DNA from: Sphingomonas mollis
Lineage (GTDB): Bacteria > Pseudomonadota > Alphaproteobacteria > Sphingomonadales > Sphingomonadaceae
Direction of reading: 5' to 3'
Assembly (NCBI RefSeq): GCF_016427505.1
Contig: NZ_JAELXS010000004.1
Span: 310,001-374,000 of the forward strand
DNA length: 64,000 bases
Position numbers and translations under genes: made by a program. This document shows, piece after piece, positions 50,711 to 59,781 of this stretch. A model generated the notes under the pieces. That model ran no database searches, was not told the DNA's origin, and saw only the letters and a list, made by a program, of their open reading frames with translations. Position 1 is the first letter of the stretch, and each line of letters opens with the position of its first letter.

Positions 50711-50944
50711 CCAAAGCGTGAATCACATCCAGGCCTAAATATGGATCCCCACACTCCCTGGTCCAGACGACGGCTCCACATCGTATCGTGGGATCGACTC
50801 TCAGGCAGCGAAAAAAATGCGTCATCTATATGCGCGCTATATGCCTTTTCCTGAAATCGATCTCGAATTGCTACGCTGGATGCGCCTAATCGCACATCCC
50901 TGAAGGCATCGTCGTGTGACGAGCGCCGCTCAAGGGGTGCAACA

Positions 50945-51823
50945 ATGAAGTTCCTTCATGCGGCCGTGGTCGTCGCGATTGTGGGTTTTCCGATCACCGC
51001 GCAGGCACAATCGACGGCAAACGATAAGGCCGAAGCTGCCAACGCCGCTGCATCATCCTCGACGCTGACCGTCAGCGGATCCGCTTCGATCGCGTCCGAC
51101 TACCGGTTTCGAGGTGTGTCGCAGTCGGATCAGGAGATGGCTGTGCAGGGCGGCATCACCATCGTGCACGAGAGCGGCCTTTACGTCGGCACATGGGCAT
51201 CGAACCTCGCCGGCTGGGGCACCTTCGGCGGAGCGAACATGGAGCTCGACCTGATCGGGGGCTACAAGGCGAAGCTCGCCGACGATGCGGCGCTCGACAT
51301 CGGCCTGACCTGGTACATGTATCCGGGCGGCGCCGACAGGACCGACTTTGCCGAACCCTATGTGAAGCTGACCGGGACATCCGGTCCTGCGACACTCACC
51401 GCCGGCGTCGCCTATGCGCCCAGGCAGCAGGCGATCGGCAAATGGTACGACACCGGTATTGATGCCGCGAACGGCATCTTCAAGAATCCCGGCGACAAGG
51501 ACGACAACCTCTATCTGTGGGGCGATGGCGCGATGGCGCTTGCCGGTACGCCGGTTACCGCCAGGGTACATGTGGGGCATAGCTGGGGTCAGGATGGCCT
51601 GGGGCCGAATGCGACCGCAGTCGCGCCGACCGGCGAATACTGGGACTGGTCGCTCGGTGCCGATGCCACCTACAGGAATCTGACGTTCAATGTCAGCTAC
51701 ATCGACACCGACATTTCGAACCGGGAGGCGACGTACCTCCGCCCCAGCTTCAGCAAGGGTCAGGACGGCACCGGCAATATCGCTGGCGGCACGGTCGTGC
51801 TCTCGCTGACGGCTGCCTTCTGA
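50945..51823 (+). CDS. TorF family outer-membrane porin
   Basis: 292 residues. Signal peptide ends at AQA|Q. The mature N-terminus LTVSGSASIASDYRFRGVSQSD is the hallmark of the TorF putative porin family; alternating strand-like segments and a terminal aromatic Phe (LSLTAAF) fit a beta-barrel. Substrate unproven. It is 20 bp ahead of two micropeptide genes and the kdp genes, so it is probably part of the potassium-uptake transcript, where it could ease ion entry through the outer membrane. Confidence 0.85.
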   Translation: MKFLHAAVVVAIVGFPITAQAQSTANDKAEAANAAASSSTLTVSGSASIASDYRFRGVSQSDQEMAVQGGITIVHESGLYVGTWASNLAGWGTFGGANMELDLIGGYKAKLADDAALDIGLTWYMYPGGADRTDFAEPYVKLTGTSGPATLTAGVAYAPRQQAIGKWYDTGIDAANGIFKNPGDKDDNLYLWGDGAMALAGTPVTARVHVGHSWGQDGLGPNATAVAPTGEYWDWSLGADATYRNLTFNVSYIDTDISNREATYLRPSFSKGQDGTGNIAGGTVVLSLTAAF

Positions 51824-51842
51824 CCTTCTGAAAGGACATCTG

Positions 51843-51926
51843 ATGCAGGACTTGCTCTGGATCGCGATCATGGTCGGGCTGGTGGCGCTTACGCTCGCCT
51901 ATGTCCGCCTGTGCGACAACGCCTGA
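51843..51926 (+). CDS. Unnamed 27-residue membrane peptide before kdpF
   Basis: MQDLLWIAIMVGLVALTLAY then VRLCDNA: one transmembrane helix ending in a short polar tail with Arg, Cys and Asp. Too short for automatic gene calls. It sits between the porin stop (20 nt) and kdpF (11 nt) with AAAGGA upstream of its ATG, so it is likely translated. It is not KdpF, which follows. I recall comparable short helices ahead of kdpF in other high-GC bacteria, usually unannotated. Confidence 0.7.
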   Translation: MQDLLWIAIMVGLVALTLAYVRLCDNA

Positions 51927-51936
51927 GGACACGGCG

Positions 51937-52026
51937 ATGACCCTCGACCTTTGGCTGGCGGCGCTCACTGCGCTTGGCCTCCTCGCCTACCTTGTGGCGG
52001 TCCTGATCCGCCCCGAACGCTTTTGA
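51937..52026 (+). CDS. kdpF: Potassium-transporting ATPase subunit F
   Basis: 29 residues: [20 protein letters not shown] then AVLIRPERF. One helix with the typical (L/I)xPE(R/K)F ending of KdpF, which stabilises the KdpABC complex. Thirteen nt before kdpA. Confidence 0.92.
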
Positions 52027-52039
52027 CGGAGGCGGACCG

Positions 52040-53743
52040 ATGACATTCCAGGGCTGGTTCCTGATCCTTGCCTTTATCGGCATCCTGCTCGCACTGGCGA
52101 AACCGGTCGGCCTGTGGCTTTTCGCTCTGTATGAGGGGCGGCGCACGCCGCTCCACATCGTGCTTGGCCCGGTCGAACGCGGCTTCTACGCGCTGTCCGG
52201 CATCGACCCGAACGAAGAGCAGGGCTGGCGCCGCTACGCGGTGCATATGTTGCTCTTCAACGCCATCCTCATGGCGTTCACTTATGCGGTGCTCCGTTTG
52301 CAGGGGGTGCTGCCGGGGAACCCGCAGGGGCTCGCCGGGGTGGGCGAGCATCTGTCGTTCAATACCGCGATCAGCTTCACCGCCAACACCAACTGGCAGA
52401 GCTATGGCGGCGAGAGCACCATGTCGAACCTCAGCCAGATGCTGGGGCTGACGATCCACAATTTCCTGTCGGCCGCGACCGGCATCGCGCTCGCTTTTGC
52501 GCTGTTCCGCGGCTTCGCCCGACGCGAGACAAAGGCGATCGGCAACTTCTGGGCCGACATGACCCGGATCACGCTCTACCTGTTGCTGCCGCTCTGCGTC
52601 GCGCTGACGATCTTCTATATCGCCAGCGGCGTGCCCCAGACGCTTGCCGGCGTCGTCGAGGTACAGACGCTGGAAGGTGCGCGGCAGTCGATCCTGCTCG
52701 GGCCGGTCGCGAGCCAGGAAGCCATCAAGATGCTTGGTACGAACGGTGGCGGCTTCTTCAACGCGAACAGCGCGCACCCGTTCGAGAATCCGACGGCGCT
52801 GACCAACTTCATTCAGATGCTGTCGATCTTCGTGATCGGCGTCGGCTTGACCTGGACCTTCGGCAAGGCAGTCGGCAACACCCGCCAAGGGTGGGCGATC
52901 CTGTCCGCCATGATGATCCTGTTCCTGGCCGGCACCACGGCCACCTACTGGGCCGAGGCAGCCGGCAATCCGGTGCTGCACAGTCTCGGCGTGGCGGGCG
53001 GTAACATGGAAGGCAAGGAGGTACGCTTCGGCATCGCCGCGTCCGCCCTGTTCTCGGTCGTCACCACCGCCGCGTCGTGCGGTGCTGTGAATGCCATGCA
53101 CGACAGCTTTACCGCTCTCGGTGGCATGATCCCGCTGTTCAACATGCAGTTGGGCGAGGTCGTCATTGGCGGTGTCGGTGCCGGCATCTACGGCTTCCTG
53201 CTGTTCGCCGTCCTCGCGGTGTTCGTCGCCGGTTTGATGGTCGGTCGCACGCCCGAATATGTCGGCAAGAAGATCGAGGCTCGGGAAGTGAAGCTTGCGG
53301 TGCTCGCGATCGCGGTGCTGCCGTTGACGATACTCGGCTTCACCGCGCTCTCGTCCGTCGTGGGTCAGGGCCTCGCGGGTCCGCTCAACAAGGGGCCGCA
53401 TGGCTTCTCGGAGATTCTCTACGCCTTCACCAGCGCGGTCGCGAACAACGGATCGGCCTTTGCGGGTCTTACCGCCAACACACCCTATTACAACGGGTTG
53501 CTGGGCGTCGCGATGTGGATCGGCCGCTTCTTCATCATCGTGCCGATGCTGGCCATCGCCGGCAGCCTGGCTGCGAAGAAATATACGCCGGAAAGTGCGG
53601 GCTCGTTCCCGACGACAGGCGGCCTCTGGGTGGGGCTGCTGGTCGGCATCATCCTGATCCTGGGCGGTCTGACCTTCCTGCCGAGCCTCGCGCTCGGTCC
53701 CATCGCCGATCATCTGATGATGATCCGCGGGCAACTCTCGTAA
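52040..53743 (+). CDS. kdpA: Potassium-transporting ATPase, channel-like subunit KdpA
   Basis: 567 residues, about ten membrane helices. The four selectivity-filter regions are visible: [39 protein letters not shown] and [10 protein letters not shown]. Binds K+ from the periplasm at high affinity and passes it to KdpB. GGAGG ribosome site upstream. Confidence 0.97.
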
Positions 53744-53754
53744 GGGCGCCGGAC

Positions 53755-55806
53755 ATGGCCCAAGACACCCAGAAACGCTCCCAGACCAAGAGCCTGTTCA
53801 CCGCCGACCTCGTCGTGCCGGCGATCAAGGCCTCGTTCCTCAAGCTCAACCCACGCGAACTCGTTCGCAACCCGGTGATGTTCGTTACCGCCGCCGTCGC
53901 GGCGCTGATGACCGTCCTGCTCGTGATCGGGCAGGACGATCTGTCGGTCGGCTTCAAGCTGCAACTGGTGATCTGGCTGTGGCTGACCGTCCTGTTCGGC
54001 ACGTTTGCGGAGGCTCTCGCGGAAGGACGCGGCAAGGCGCAGGCGGCATCCCTGCGCGCCACCAAGGCGGAACTGACCGCCAAGCGCCTAAAGGGCGACG
54101 GTCGCCAGTTCGACGCCGTGCCTGCCAGCCAGCTCAGGGTGGGCGACATCGTGCTGGTGGAGACGAACGATCTGATCCCGTCGGACGGCGATGTCGTCTC
54201 GGGCGTTGCCTCCGTCAACGAGGCGGCGATCACCGGCGAGAGCGCGCCGGTGATCCGCGAGGCGGGCGGGGATCGATCGGCGGTGACCGCGGGTACGCGC
54301 GTTATCTCCGACGAAATCCGCGTCAAGGTGACGGTCGAGCCCGGCAAGGGCTTCCTCGACCGGATGATCGCGCTGGTCGAAGGCGCCGAGCGACAGAAGA
54401 CACCTAACGAGATCGCCCTCACGCTGTTGCTGGTCGGCCTCACGATCATCTTTCTGATCGCGGTCGGGACCATCCCCGGCTTCGCCACCTATGCCGACGG
54501 ATCCATACCCGTGGCGATCCTGGCGGCACTGCTCGTCACGCTGATCCCGACAACGATCGCGGCGCTGCTGTCGGCGATCGGGATTGCCGGGATGGATCGT
54601 CTGGTAAGGTTCAACGTGCTCGCCAAGTCGGGCCGCGCGGTGGAAGCGGCAGGCGACATCGACGTGCTGTTGCTGGACAAGACCGGCACGATCACGATCG
54701 GCGACCGCCAGGCGAGCGAATTCCGGTCGGTGTCCGGAACCAGCACTCAGGAACTGGCCGAGGCCGCGCTGGTAGCCAGCCTCGCCGACGAAACGCCGGA
54801 AGGCCGCTCGATCGTGCTGCTTGCCCGCGAACAATTCCACGTCGCGACCGCCGAGCTGGCCGTCGGTGCCGAGATCATCCCGTTCACGGCGCAAACCCGT
54901 ATTTCGGGCGTGAAGGTTGGTGGATCGCTGATCCAGAAGGGCGCGGTGGATTCGATCCTGCGCGCCAATCCGGGGTCGGGTGAAACGGCGGTCGCGACCG
55001 AACTGCGCCGCATCACCGACGAGATCGCGCGTGCAGGCGGTACGCCGCTCGCGGTCGCGCGGGACGGCCGTCTGCTCGGTGCGATCTTCCTGAAGGACGT
55101 GGTGAAGGCTGGCATTCGCGAGCGTTTCGGCGAGCTGCGCGCCATGGGCATTCGCACGGTGATGATCACCGGCGACAATCCGCTCACCGCCGCGGCGATC
55201 GCGGCAGAGGCGGGGGTGGACGATTTCCTCGCCCAGGCCACGCCCGAGGACAAGCTGGAGCTGATCCGCAAGGAGCAGACCGGCGGGCGGCTTGTCGCGA
55301 TGTGCGGCGACGGCACCAACGACGCGCCGGCGCTGGCGCAGGCCGATGTCGGCGTCGCGATGAACACCGGTACGCAGGCGGCGCGCGAAGCCGGCAACAT
55401 GGTGGATCTCGACAGCGATCCTACCAAACTGATCGAGGTCGTCGGCCTCGGCAAGCAGTTGCTGATGACGCGGGGGGCGCTGACGACCTTCTCGGTCGCC
55501 AATGACGTGGCGAAATATTTCGCCATCATCCCGGCGATGTTCGTCGTCCTTTATCCGGGGCTCGGCGTGCTGAACGTGATGCGGCTGGGATCGCCTGAAA
55601 GCGCGATCCTGTCGGCGATCATCTTCAACGCCGTCGTCATTCCGTGCCTCGTCCCACTGGCGCTCCGCGGTGTTGCCTACAAACCGATGGCAGCCGGACC
55701 ACTGCTCGCCCGCAACCTCGCGATCTACGGCCTTGGTGGTCTGATCGCCCCGTTCATCGGCATCAAATTCATCGACCTCGTGGTCGGTGGCCTCGGTCTC
55801 GCGTAA
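53755..55806 (+). CDS. kdpB: Potassium-transporting ATPase, catalytic subunit KdpB
   Basis: 683 residues, P-type ATPase. Phosphorylated Asp308 in DKTGTIT, actuator motif TGESAPV, hinge [10 protein letters not shown] and [11 protein letters not shown]. Helices around 35-80, 215-275 and at the C-terminus. Hydrolyses ATP to drive K+ uptake. Eleven nt after kdpA. Confidence 0.97.
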
Positions 55807-55818
55807 GGAAAGAAAGAC

Positions 55819-56418
55819 ATGGGCAAGGATTTCTCCTCCGCACTGCGGCCCGCGATCGTCATGACGATCCTGTTCGCGGTCCTTCTCGGACTCGTCTATC
55901 CGCTTGCCATGACCGGCATCGGCCAGACGCTCTTCCCCGCTCAGGCGAACGGCAGCCTGGTGCGGGACGCACGTGGCACGGTCGTCGGCTCGAGCGTATT
56001 GGGTCAGGCATTCACGGCAGACCGTTATTTCCAGACCCGGCCATCGGCCGCCGGCAAGGGCTATGATGGTCTGGCATCGTCAGGTTCGAACCTTGGTCCG
56101 GCAAGCCAGGCCCTCGTCGACCGCGTGAAGCCGGACGTCGCGAAACGTCGTGCCGAAGGCGTGCCCGGCCCCGTACCGGTCGATCTGGTCACCGCCAGCG
56201 GTTCTGGCCTCGACCCCGATCTCTCACCGGCTGCCGCACTGACCCAGGCGCCGCGTATCGCCCGCGTTCGCGGCGTGCCGGTCGACCGGGTTCGCACGCT
56301 GGTGGCCGATGCAACCCAGGCGTCCATCCTGGGTGACGCCCATGTCAACGTACTGGCCCTCAACCGTGCTCTCGACACGCTGTCAGGGGCCAGCACCGCC
56401 GGCGCACGCCCGCGCTGA
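55819..56418 (+). CDS. kdpC: Potassium-transporting ATPase subunit C
   Basis: 199 residues. One N-terminal helix (IVMTILFAVLLGLVYPLAMTGI), then the periplasmic domain with FTADRYFQTRPSAAG, SGSNLGP and ASGSGLDPDLSPAAA, all KdpC hallmarks. Stabilises the complex and supports ATP binding. Stop shares bases with the kdpD start (TGATG). Confidence 0.97.
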   Translation: MGKDFSSALRPAIVMTILFAVLLGLVYPLAMTGIGQTLFPAQANGSLVRDARGTVVGSSVLGQAFTADRYFQTRPSAAGKGYDGLASSGSNLGPASQALVDRVKPDVAKRRAEGVPGPVPVDLVTASGSGLDPDLSPAAALTQAPRIARVRGVPVDRVRTLVADATQASILGDAHVNVLALNRALDTLSGASTAGARPR

Positions 56419-59093
56419 TGCCTGTCTCGGGCGCTAAACGACCTGACCCGGACGCCCTTCTGCGCGCAGCCGCGCAGGAGGGAAGAGGGCGCTTCAAGAT
56501 TTTCCTTGGCGCCGCTCCCGGAGTCGGCAAGACGTTCGAGATGCTGTCCGAGGGCGCCGCGCGTAAACGGGACGGCGTCGATGTCATCGTCGGCGTGGTG
56601 GAAACCCACGGTCGTGCGGAAACCGAGGCGCTGACCCGCGGTCACGAGATCATACCCCGGCGAGCGATAGACTATGAAGGCCGGACGCTTCGGGAAATGG
56701 ACCTGGACGCGATCCTTGCACGATCACCCCGCCTCGTCCTTGTCGACGAACTTGCCCATACAAATGCGCCGGGCAGTCGCCATCCGAAACGCTATCAGGA
56801 CGTCGAGGAACTGCTGGTCGCCGGCATCGATGTCTATTCGACCGTCAACATCCAGCACGTCGAGAGCCTGAACGATGTCGTCGCCAGTTTCACCCGCGTG
56901 CGGGTGCGGGAAACCGTACCGGACAGCGTCCTGGAAATGGCCGAGATCGAGGTCGTCGACATTCCGCCCGACGAATTGATCGAGCGGCTGCGGGCCGGCA
57001 AGGTCTATCTGCCGCATGAAGCGACGCGCGCGTTGTCGCACTTCTTCTCCAAATCAAACCTGTCGGCACTGCGTGAACTGGCGTTGCGGCGCGCGGCGCA
57101 GGCGGTCGATGCCCGGATGCTCGACGACGTCCGCGCGCTGGGACTTGGCGGCACCTGGGCGGGCAGCGACCGGATCGTCGTCGCGATCAACGAGTTGCCC
57201 GGCGCCGACACGCTGGTGCGCGCCGCCAAGCGGGTAGCGGATGGCCTGCGCGGTCCCTGGACCGCCGTCTTTATCGAAACCCCGCGCGCGGCGCATTTTT
57301 CCGATGCCCAGCATCAGCGCGTCGCCGCCGCCATGACGCTGGCGACGCAGCTCGGCGCTGCCGTTGCGACCGTTCCCGCGACCGATGTCGTGGAGGGTAT
57401 CCAGAACTTCCTCGCCGACGCCCGGGCGACCCAGCTGGTCATGGGCAAGTCGCGGCGGTCGCGCTCGTTCGAATTCCTGCACGGCTCCGTCGTCGATCGG
57501 GTGATCCGCAACACCCCGGGCGTTACCGTCCATGTCTTGCCCGTCGTGTCCGATCAGGCCGACCGGGACCGTGGTCGACGCAGACCCGCGCGATGGGGCA
57601 CGCCCGCCGGCTATGCGATCACCACCGCGCTTGTCGCCGGCATCACCGGCATCGCCAGCGCGCTGTTCCACGTGCTCGACCTAGGCAACGTCGCGCTTCT
57701 GTATCTCTTGCCGGTGATGGCGGCTGCGAGCCTGTATGGTCTTCGCACCGGCCTCTACGCCGGCATCGCCTCAAGCCTGGCCTATAATTTCTTCTTCCTG
57801 CCGCCCGTCGGTACGCTGAGCATCAGCAATCCCGAAAACCTGATCTCGGTCGTTGTCCTTCTCGGCATCGCGATCGCCACCAGCCAACTGACCTCGCGCG
57901 TCCGGGCACAGGCCGATCTGGCGGCGGCCAGCGCCCGGACGAATGCGACGCTGGCCGGCTTCCTTCGCCAGATCACGAGTGTCAACGACATCGACGTCGC
58001 CGCGCAGATGATCTGCGACGATGTGCGGGGTCTGCTCGACGTGCAGGTGGTACTGCTGGTGCGCGGGGCGGGCACGGGCCTCGACATCCTCGCGACGAGC
58101 GACGCCGCCTATCGTCTCGGCACGATGGACACCGCGGCTGCCACATGGGCGCTGGACACCGGCATGCCGGCTGGAAAAGGCTCCGGCACCCTCGCGGCGT
58201 CGGAGTGGCTGTTCCAGCCGTTGAAGGCAGGCGGCCGGGTCCTCGGCGTCCTCGGCATCGCCAAGGATACGACGGCCGACCCGGTGCGGGCCGATCAGTT
58301 GCCTTTGCTCAGCAGCCTGCTCGATCAATCCGCGCTCGTGCTCGAACGGCTGCGGCTGGAGGTCGAAATGCGCGACGTCGAGACGGTGCGAACCCGGGAT
58401 CGCTTGCGCGCTGCGCTTCTATCTTCGGTCAGTCACGACCTGCGGACGCCGCTTACGGCCGTCATCGCGGCAGCCGCGCAGCTGCACCATGGCGCCACCC
58501 CCGAACTGATCGGCACGATCGAAAGCGAGGCCGCCCGCCTTAATCGCTTTGTCGCCAACCTCCTCGACATGGCCCGCGTCGAGGCGGGGGCATTGAAACT
58601 GAAGATCGAGGCGACCGACCTTGAGGAAGCGGTCACCGGCGCCGCGCACGATGCACGGCGCGCGTTGGAAGGTCATGCCCTCCGGCTCGATGTTCCGCCT
58701 GGCCTCCCGCTGGTCCGGGCCGACCCGCAGCTTCTCCATCACTGCCTGCTTAACCTGCTCGACAATGCCGGTCGCTATGCCGATCCGGGTACCGACATCG
58801 TTATCGAAGGCAGCAATCGCTTTGGGGAGCTTCGCCTGGTCGTCATGGATCACGGGCCGGGCTTGCCGCCCGGGCGGGAGAAGGAGGTATTCGAGACGTT
58901 CCGGCGGCTTGAGGGCTCCGATCGGGCCATCGGTGGTACGGGCCTCGGTCTGGCAATCGTCAAGGCGTTTGCCGAGGCAATGGGCATGACGGTCGAAGCT
59001 GCGAACCGGGGTGACGGCGCGGGTGCCGCTTTCACGCTGGTCTTTCCCCCCGGCCTCATCGTCCGTGATCCCGCACCGGAAGGTCTGACCTGA
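56418..59093 (+). CDS. kdpD: Sensor histidine kinase KdpD
   Basis: 891 residues. N-terminal KdpD domain with Walker A GAAPGVGKT at 31-39 and HTNAPGSRHPKRYQDVEELL, a universal-stress-like domain (about 245-365), four helices (about 395-500), a GAF region, phospho-acceptor His673 in SSVSHDLRTPLTAV and an ATPase domain with [10 protein letters not shown]. Senses low K+ or osmotic stress and phosphorylates KdpE, which activates kdp transcription. Confidence 0.96.
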   Translation: MPVSGAKRPDPDALLRAAAQEGRGRFKIFLGAAPGVGKTFEMLSEGAARKRDGVDVIVGVVETHGRAETEALTRGHEIIPRRAIDYEGRTLREMDLDAILARSPRLVLVDELAHTNAPGSRHPKRYQDVEELLVAGIDVYSTVNIQHVESLNDVVASFTRVRVRETVPDSVLEMAEIEVVDIPPDELIERLRAGKVYLPHEATRALSHFFSKSNLSALRELALRRAAQAVDARMLDDVRALGLGGTWAGSDRIVVAINELPGADTLVRAAKRVADGLRGPWTAVFIETPRAAHFSDAQHQRVAAAMTLATQLGAAVATVPATDVVEGIQNFLADARATQLVMGKSRRSRSFEFLHGSVVDRVIRNTPGVTVHVLPVVSDQADRDRGRRRPARWGTPAGYAITTALVAGITGIASALFHVLDLGNVALLYLLPVMAAASLYGLRTGLYAGIASSLAYNFFFLPPVGTLSISNPENLISVVVLLGIAIATSQLTSRVRAQADLAAASARTNATLAGFLRQITSVNDIDVAAQMICDDVRGLLDVQVVLLVRGAGTGLDILATSDAAYRLGTMDTAAATWALDTGMPAGKGSGTLAASEWLFQPLKAGGRVLGVLGIAKDTTADPVRADQLPLLSSLLDQSALVLERLRLEVEMRDVETVRTRDRLRAALLSSVSHDLRTPLTAVIAAAAQLHHGATPELIGTIESEAARLNRFVANLLDMARVEAGALKLKIEATDLEEAVTGAAHDARRALEGHALRLDVPPGLPLVRADPQLLHHCLLNLLDNAGRYADPGTDIVIEGSNRFGELRLVVMDHGPGLPPGREKEVFETFRRLEGSDRAIGGTGLGLAIVKAFAEAMGMTVEAANRGDGAGAAFTLVFPPGLIVRDPAPEGLT

Positions 59094-59094
59094 C

Positions 59095-59781
59095 ATGCCT
59101 GCCAAAATTCTTGTGGTGGACGATGAACTCGCCATCCGCCGTCTGCTGCGCAACACACTCGTCCGGGCCGGTTACACCGTCGTCGAGGCCGAAGACGGCC
59201 GGCAAGCCCTGCATCAGGCAGCGGCCGAACACCCCAGCGCCGTACTGCTCGATCTCGGCCTGCCGGACCGTGACGGATTGACGCTCATTCCCTTGCTGCG
59301 GACGCATGGCGACGCCGTCATCCTGGTGGTGTCCGCACGCGACGCGGTCGACGAGAAGGTGACCGCGCTCGACCTCGGCGCAGACGATTTCGTCTGCAAG
59401 CCGTTCGACACCGACGAGCTGCTCGCACGGCTTCGCGTAGCCCTTCGCCATCACGGCTTGTCCGAGACGATGCAGAAGATCGTGCGACGCGGTGACATCA
59501 GCATCGATCTCGATCGTCGGGTCGTTCTTCGCGGGACCCAGGAACTGCATCTCACCCGCAAGGAATATGACGTGCTCGCCGTGCTGACCCGACATATCGG
59601 CCGGGTTGTGACGCATGAACGCGTACTGGCGGCTGCATGGGGAGGAGACGACGAGCCACGCGTCGAGTATCTTCGCATTGTAATCCGCAACCTTCGTCAG
59701 AAGCTGGAACACCCGGGCCCGGTCGGCAGCGTGATCGCCAACGAACTCGGTGTAGGCTATCGTCTTCGCTCCGACGTATGA
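59095..59781 (+). CDS. kdpE: Response regulator KdpE
   Basis: 228 residues. Receiver with VDDELAIRRLL, phospho-acceptor Asp53 (LLDLGLPDRDG), FVCKPFDTDEL, and an OmpR-type winged helix (LHLTRKEYDVLAVL, YLRIVIRNLRQKLE, ELGVGYRL). One nt after kdpD. It should bind upstream of the porin-kdp transcript, but I could not identify its site. Confidence 0.95.
   Translation: MPAKILVVDDELAIRRLLRNTLVRAGYTVVEAEDGRQALHQAAAEHPSAVLLDLGLPDRDGLTLIPLLRTHGDAVILVVSARDAVDEKVTALDLGADDFVCKPFDTDELLARLRVALRHHGLSETMQKIVRRGDISIDLDRRVVLRGTQELHLTRKEYDVLAVLTRHIGRVVTHERVLAAAWGGDDEPRVEYLRIVIRNLRQKLEHPGPVGSVIANELGVGYRLRSDV

Follow-up and report, generated by a model that had tools for sequence, protein, structure and literature searches.

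Structural papers on the Kdp pump, going by the excerpts cited, use the E. coli complex (PMC6255902, PMC8385062). The described protein closest to the peptide reported here is KdpF (PF09604, TIGR02115), which resembles it in size, in its one helix, in its place just before kdpA, in its likely orientation and in the pump to which it belongs. KdpF carries Y-L and a (R)PE(R)F end, whereas the peptide has no PERF tail and conserves its own D3, F14 and C24; in E. coli, KdpF is present and the peptide absent. Other tiny hydrophobic helices on a large membrane protein are AcrZ of AcrB (PMC7267776, excerpt) and CydX of cytochrome bd (PMC4325964, excerpt). They are like the peptide in this respect but have another partner and belong to another family, and binding of the peptide is predicted. 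Membrane peptides acting on sensor kinases have been the frame for the discussion of mycobacterial KdpF (excerpt of PMC3618439).

No description of the peptide appeared among the matches listed by our search of the open-licence literature. The excerpt of PMC9239096 treats kdpFABC of S. fredii CCBAU 45436, a strain with a plasmid that encodes the peptide, and leaves the peptide unmentioned; that of PMC11364881 only cites KdpF, and that of PMC8552747 places a structured 5′UTR about 100 nt before the Caulobacter kdpF. The Deinococcus gene SEP068184 (PMC9650054, excerpt) was considered as the peptide and rejected as a different gene.

A 27-residue frame ahead of kdpF

The window, the whole stretch of 64,000 nucleotides of Sphingomonas mollis DNA that was analysed, encodes on its forward strand, in this order, a porin, the peptide, kdpF, kdpA, kdpB, kdpC, kdpD and kdpE. 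The first gene of the unit (50945-51823, 292 residues) encodes a putative outer-membrane porin that matches Pfam Gcw_chp (7.5e-48, 164 bits, cut-off 24) and NCBIfam TorF (TIGR02001; 3.4e-36, 125 bits, cut-off 47.15), and thus belongs to the TorF family porins (TIGR02001, PF09694). The peptide follows at 51843-51926, its ATG at 51843 closely preceded by a ribosome-binding-like AAAGGA; its sequence is MQDLLWIAIMVGLVALTLAYVRLCDNA (27 residues, a single hydrophobic stretch) and it has no family name. Next come kdpF (51937-52026, 29 residues; Potass_KdpF 1.5e-10) and kdpA (52040-53743; KdpA 8.6e-240), both identified with Pfam. The intergenic gaps are 19 nt from porin to peptide, 10 nt from peptide to kdpF and 13 nt from kdpF to kdpA. 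The earlier note had described this succession of TorF-family porin, 27-residue single-helix peptide and 29-residue KdpF, which the frames and the Pfam and NCBIfam matches confirm; its gaps of 20 and 11 nt are each one too large. Downstream lie kdpB (53755-55806, ATG at 53755), whose 683-residue translation matches KdpB in 251 loci, kdpC (55819-56418; KdpC 2.1e-65, Pfam), kdpD encoding a full-length sensor kinase (56418-59093; KdpD 1.3e-95, HisKA, HATPase_c), and kdpE encoding a response regulator (59095-59781; Pfam Response_reg and Trans_reg_C). For the latter product KdpE was the top NCBIfam match, under the cut-off of that model.

The peptide frame is almost certainly a real gene. Among sphingomonad copies, third codon positions take most of the differences, and pN/pS was 0.34 for 19 disjoint pairs (Fisher p 8e-22) and rose to 0.48 when all 296 were used, as against 1.09 and 1.54 in the two alternative frames. 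The corresponding values for kdpF were 0.28 (20 disjoint pairs) and 0.31 (588 pairs). The sample was restricted to loci with full-length matches (47 peptides, 48 KdpF). The sphingomonad frame is therefore under purifying selection.

Relatives of the peptide follow the consensus m.Dl..la....fFal..ay...Cdrl. The best conserved positions are D3 (94%), C24 (82%), F14 (75%), D/E25 (72%) and R/K26 (69%), position 20 being Y, F or L; residue 3 is acidic in 216 of the 223 rows examined. The (R/K)LC(D/E) tail given in the earlier note is the local form, the general end being a looser C-(D/E)-(R/K)-L. Charged residues account for only 7 of 2977 letters at positions 7-19. In 216 peptides, positions 1-6 hold 217 acidic versus 6 basic residues, and 359 basic versus 203 acidic residues are found from position 21 on. 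By the positive-inside rule, this acidic N-terminal and basic C-terminal end lead one to expect an N-out, C-in helix.

This conserved gene is missing from the family databases that we searched. The window peptide matched no Pfam family, and NCBIfam returned only an unrelated hit (E 0.19). For 37 aligned relatives, no Pfam or NCBIfam family fitted and KdpF was not matched at E 0.1; families matched by single members reached E 0.016 or worse, and the one Pfam family matched by two members had a best value of 0.062. Among solved-structure sequences, neither the peptide nor the porin had a convincing relative. Descent of the peptide as a KdpF paralogue was considered and rejected: profile homology was not detected (hhalign of 212 peptide rows versus 253 KdpF rows, probability 0.9%, at low power for such short helices) and no curated KdpF model was matched.

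The earlier note had expected automated annotation to miss the small helix, and gene tables bear this out. The table of a Sphingomonas NY01 plasmid lists the porin and kdpF and leaves unlisted the peptide encoded between them, and in the Rhizobium johnstonii, Acetobacter, Azospirillum and Streptomyces tables it is likewise unlisted at its place; these plasmid tables are incomplete, so that an unlisted peptide may be annotated in the original record. In Arthrobacter, the peptide lies inside a longer hypothetical frame. A 34-residue relative from Mycetohabitans (WP_212667346.1) is named ‘potassium ABC transporter ATPase’ by NCBI, an uninformative name because 34 residues are too few for such an ATPase. 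In the copies scanned, which include its first 26 residues as a member of the 37-member alignment, no family model was found behind this name.

The porin and a candidate KdpE site

The E. coli KdpE sites consist of two 6-bp half-sites, TTTATA-N5-TTTACA, with a 5-bp spacer before the operon (PMC3264566, excerpt). A KdpE-like direct repeat, CTATAT-N5-CTATAT, lies in the window at 50826-50842 on the forward strand, 102 nt 5′ of the porin start, with an 11-nt period; it is the single match in the window on both strands. It agrees with the E. coli sites in spacing and place, but its half-sites read TATATG twice and do not keep the second T, which is invariant in the excerpt of PMC3264566. A relaxed form of the repeat occurred 23 times in 386,123 nt from 53 sphingomonad loci (a few genomes being present twice), always within 1.3 kb upstream of the operon, with no occurrence on the other strand and three in a shuffle; these figures are descriptive, the pattern having been built from the same loci. 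It was missing from 30 of the 53 loci, including 9 of the 14 marked as porin-linked. Where present, it usually stands ahead of whichever gene leads the operon: 97-133 nt before the peptide in nine porin-less loci, 983-1056 nt before it and ahead of the porin in five porin loci, and, at seven further loci, 359-531 nt before it, six of these loci having a gene of about 105 residues in between. In some sphingomonads (L006, L014, L017, L018, L020 and L109), a conserved, partly hydrophobic frame of about 101-105 residues was seen between repeat and peptide, at −453 to −135 relative to the peptide in L006, where it occupies the place of the window porin.

Between 50256 and 52100, a simple terminator scan found none, with 1.3 expected by chance, and an uninformative sigma-70 promoter scan also found none. 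The 19-nt gap, this terminator result and the position of the repeat suggest that the window porin probably belongs to the same transcription unit as kdp. The putative KdpE-like repeat ahead of the porin, with its E. coli-like spacing, would probably also place the porin under shared K+ control. Peptide, porin and kdpFABC would probably form one KdpE-driven unit in the window.

The earlier note had seen in this arrangement a potassium-uptake unit reaching from the outer membrane inward. In a survey with a profile grown from the window porin, most loci being seen over 1.5 kb only, a TorF porin lay directly upstream in the same orientation at 9 of 35 sphingomonad kdp loci (7 of 15 in the same genus), and in divergent orientation at L034, whereas TorF-family matches were present in 217 of 246 sphingomonad genomes. 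A porin also stands beside a peptide-less kdp operon at L030 and, by partial matches, at L228 and L234; kdp loci of Massilia and of certain other proteobacteria have one too, whether they encode the peptide or not (L177, L201). A sphingomonad-wide link between porin and kdp was therefore rejected. The link is real but confined to a lineage, and the outer-membrane-inward unit may apply to a sub-clade; porin and peptide were gained or lost separately, since the porin occurs beside peptide-less kdp and at only these 9 of 35 loci. No K+ role for a TorF-family porin was found among the matches listed by the open-licence search, and the word potassium does not occur in the paper that it gave. One locus with the porin-peptide-kdp layout, L110, comes from a record titled Arthrobacter sp. 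TPD3018 (QDFQ01000002.1); its KdpA is 86% identical to that of the window, and the record is probably a mislabelled sphingomonad.

Distribution of the peptide among kdp loci

Loci with kdpA were drawn from the order, class and phylum to which the window belongs, 80 named genomes, plasmid records and E. coli, and further from the phyla that include a Ktedonospora, a Melainabacteria and an Acidobacteria record; we take these phyla to be Chloroflexota, Cyanobacteriota and Acidobacteriota. The 450 nt upstream of kdpA were searched on the coding strand, at 8 bits or more, with peptide profiles trained on kdp loci. This search found a relative in 224 of 308 distinct loci (identical regions removed), spread over nine phyla by record names. 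Before deduplication 229 of 313 regions were positive; on the opposite strand none of the 313 reached 6 bits and two reached 4 bits.

The peptide was found in 30/35 loci of the Sphingomonadales sample, 27/29 of Alphaproteobacteria, 47/85 of the phylum set, 17/20 of Chloroflexota, 7/11 of Acidobacteriota, 7/29 of Cyanobacteriota, 13/20 of plasmids and 0/1 of E. coli. The value for named genomes (76/78) is biased upward, these loci being the closest to the window KdpA, and the sample as a whole is tilted to relatives of the window, with no Bacteroidota, and with Actinomycetota and Bacillota from a few plasmid records only. Carriers include Myxococcus, a Gemmatimonadetes, Spartobacteria, Pedosphaera, Deinococcus radiodurans, Nonomuraea, Arthrobacter and, at 12 bits only, Streptomyces. 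No peptide was found in the 450 nt before kdpA of E. coli, Lactiplantibacillus, Enterococcus, Halobacterium, Trichormus, Tsukamurella, Deinococcus sp. AJ005 and Sphingosinicella soli, nor at loci with an enterobacterial- or Pseudomonas-like KdpF, as judged from the KdpF letters. Absences are somewhat overcounted: at least L154 and L258 were missed by the 450-nt search, and L312 and L321 by the profile.

Genome-wide searches link the peptide to kdpA. KdpA is present in 35 of 246 Sphingomonadales genomes, and a profile of 37 peptide sequences gave 29 matches in these 246 genomes, one in each, all about 200-270 nt before the KdpA match; none fell in the 211 KdpA-less genomes. The genome of the window holds a single match, the window copy. 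Six KdpA-positive genomes had no profile match, of which one (G047) carries a divergent copy of 20 bits; in the five others no peptide was found. Thus, in the Sphingomonadales genomes searched, the peptide is encoded with kdpA and absent without it, and the 27-residue frame is conserved, as the earlier note required, by profile in 29 of the 35 KdpA-positive genomes. In 11 genomes of other phyla searched in full, the best match had an E value of 4.4e-4 or better in ten and there was none in one; several showed weaker second matches. One genome from the Ktedonospora phylum, that of Ktedonospora formicarum (G836, locus L170), was seen to match KdpA three times at near full length and to have an in-frame TAG within a KdpD-domain match.

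In 220 of the 222 loci holding both, the peptide precedes kdpF, with a median distance of 10 nt between its stop codon and the beginning of the KdpF match. Other arrangements are kdpF-peptide-kdpA (L223, L225), porin-kdpF-kdpB-peptide-kdpA-kdpC (L035) and, at two Cyanobacteriota loci (L272 being one), peptide-kdpA with no kdpF found upstream. These orders argue that the peptide belongs with kdpA more than with kdpF. L035 is one of four sphingomonad loci (L032, L033, L034, L035) that represent a divergent type of kdp operon, in which kdpF and kdpB stand ahead of kdpA; the other three are without the peptide, and kdpC after kdpA was seen at L035. Of the Cyanobacteriota loci (L272-L301), 20/29 have neither peptide nor kdpF in the 450 nt before kdpA, and Trichormus has a longer KdpF between kdpB and kdpC.

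On a KdpA tree of 247 sequences (FastTree, root not inferred, L154 and L258 scored as peptide-positive), presence of the peptide changes state 14 times, as compared with 42.5 in shuffles, none of 500 being as low. The E. coli KdpA falls in a starred group with those of the peptide-bearing Mycetohabitans, Variovorax, Roseateles and Massilia, and the simplest reading of this unrooted tree is a loss of the peptide in the E. coli line.

Covariation with KdpA and the proposed place in the pump

The two KdpA columns, out of 277, that best track the presence of the peptide are Tyr82 and Arg86, numbered as in the window and separated by one turn. Peptide-bearing rows have Arg86 in 97% of cases and peptide-less rows in 15%; for Tyr82 the shares are 96% and 26%. 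The E. coli equivalents are Phe78 and Leu82 (numbering of the matched row). Seven loci scored as peptide-less keep Arg86, two of which, L312 (−307 to −226 from kdpA) and L321 (−201 to −108), encode divergent peptides in the right place. With these two taken as peptide-bearing, 307 rows divide into 217 with peptide and Arg86, 76 with neither, nine with the peptide only and five with Arg86 only (L041, L098, L263, L309, L313).

Residue 3 of the peptide (codon 51849-51851, forward strand) varies together with position 86 of KdpA (codon 52295-52297, forward strand). In the discovery set of 200 peptide-bearing rows, an acidic residue 3 was accompanied by Arg86 in 194 and not in one, and all five peptides with a non-acidic residue 3 face a KdpA without Arg86. 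A second set comprised 60 genomes whose KdpA had never been compared before, although the peptide profile had been trained in part on their upstream regions. There, Arg86 was found in 20/21 loci with an acidic residue 3, Leu instead of Arg86 in 2/2 loci with a non-acidic residue, and Arg at position 86 in 0/37 peptide-less loci. An acidic residue 3 without Arg86 occurs at L267 and L383.

Relatedness inflates these counts. On well supported branches residue 3 changed three times, each time with Arg86 (3/3, median p 0.25); over all branches there were six residue-3 pairs, direction not reported. Presence of the peptide gave seven changes, four in the same way, none opposite and three with no difference (median p 0.125). 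Independent events are thus few, and neither test reaches p<0.05 alone. Mutual information ranked the pair 3-86 first of 15,255 peptide-KdpA pairs, and third the pair 10-78, which would fit an antiparallel register. In the controls, however, a KdpB column came close to the score of the pair 3-86 (z 28.7) from a single variant row, KdpC pairs went up to z 14, and eight KdpF-KdpA pairs lay at z about 22.8. As nearly invariant columns inflate this score, it was discounted as proof of a 3-86 contact, and weight was put on the counts in unused genomes. Taken as sequence comparison, the covariation with position 86 is established, and residue 3 appears to co-evolve with it over few independent events.

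In a KdpA model built with 25 sequences (overall mean pLDDT 76.5), Arg86 ends a helix that spans residues 63-86; a loop, a helix 103-114 and the filter motif come next. Mean pLDDT is 95, 91 and 88 for residues 61-70, 71-80 and 81-90. In the M1-P-M2 fold of K+ channels, the corresponding helix end is extracellular, which agrees with an N-out peptide. We consider it likely that the peptide is a single-helix accessory membrane subunit of the Kdp pump, the fifth, docked on KdpA. It would span the membrane with a periplasmic N-terminus and a cytoplasmic C-terminus and pack on helix 63-86, which is the outer one in the first pore repeat. The acidic residue 3 of the peptide, Asp3 in the window, would pair with Arg86 where that helix ends on the periplasmic side, beside the loop to the selectivity filter. 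So bound, the peptide would most likely stabilise the KdpA-KdpB assembly or tune KdpA at its outer mouth.

Linkage to kdpA and covariation would equally be expected of an assembly factor that binds nascent KdpA transiently through Asp3-Arg86, aids its insertion or the joining of KdpB or KdpF, and is absent from the mature pump; its coding place ahead of kdpF (220/222 loci) would suit such a role. No computed result separates a transient factor from a permanent subunit, but the conserved residues at both helix ends and the pattern of loss along KdpA lineages fit a permanent partner at least equally well, and we regard the transient factor as unlikely. Translation of the frame might, on the other hand, only couple or control that of kdpF or kdpA, the product being irrelevant, as the shortness of the frame, its frequent place near the start of the unit and its median distance of 10 nt from the KdpF match would allow. 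Amino-acid selection, the conserved D3, F14 and C24, covariation with a KdpA residue and the loci in which the frame follows kdpF or separates kdpB from kdpA speak against this leader, which we hold to be very improbable indeed.

The earlier note had left open whether a second small helix would be a subunit or a regulator of KdpABC. A membrane regulator of KdpD, sensing the state of the pump or reporting it to the kinase, would agree with the kdpDE genes in the same operon of the window and with KdpD-domain matches in 37 of the 38 genomes from other phyla that carry the peptide, 36 of them over the cut-off. In 19 of these 36, however, the only KdpD frames over the cut-off have 473 residues or fewer, too short by domain layout for a membrane and a kinase part, and the peptide covaries with KdpA. 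We consider such a regulator a distinctly doubtful reading. The second helical component thus stands, and the evidence favours a subunit on KdpA and not primarily a regulator of KdpD.

The comparisons argue that the peptide is an overlooked part, probably a structural one, with a single helix, in the Kdp systems of many bacteria. It is not universally required, since work on the E. coli pump has been done in its absence. The E. coli and Pseudomonas kdp lineages would have lost it, and we lean towards the view that the usual bacterial Kdp pump has five subunits, the E. coli complex being a reduced form in which a conserved helix, placed where the first pore repeat of KdpA ends towards the periplasm, was lost and Arg86 replaced. 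A subunit on KdpA would explain the KdpA arginine that is missing from E. coli. If this is true, the structures now available do not include a component by which many lineages shape the entry of K+ or keep KdpA attached to the pump. A component present in about three quarters of the sampled loci would change the definition of this textbook ion pump and show how parts of 27 residues can escape notice in well studied complexes.
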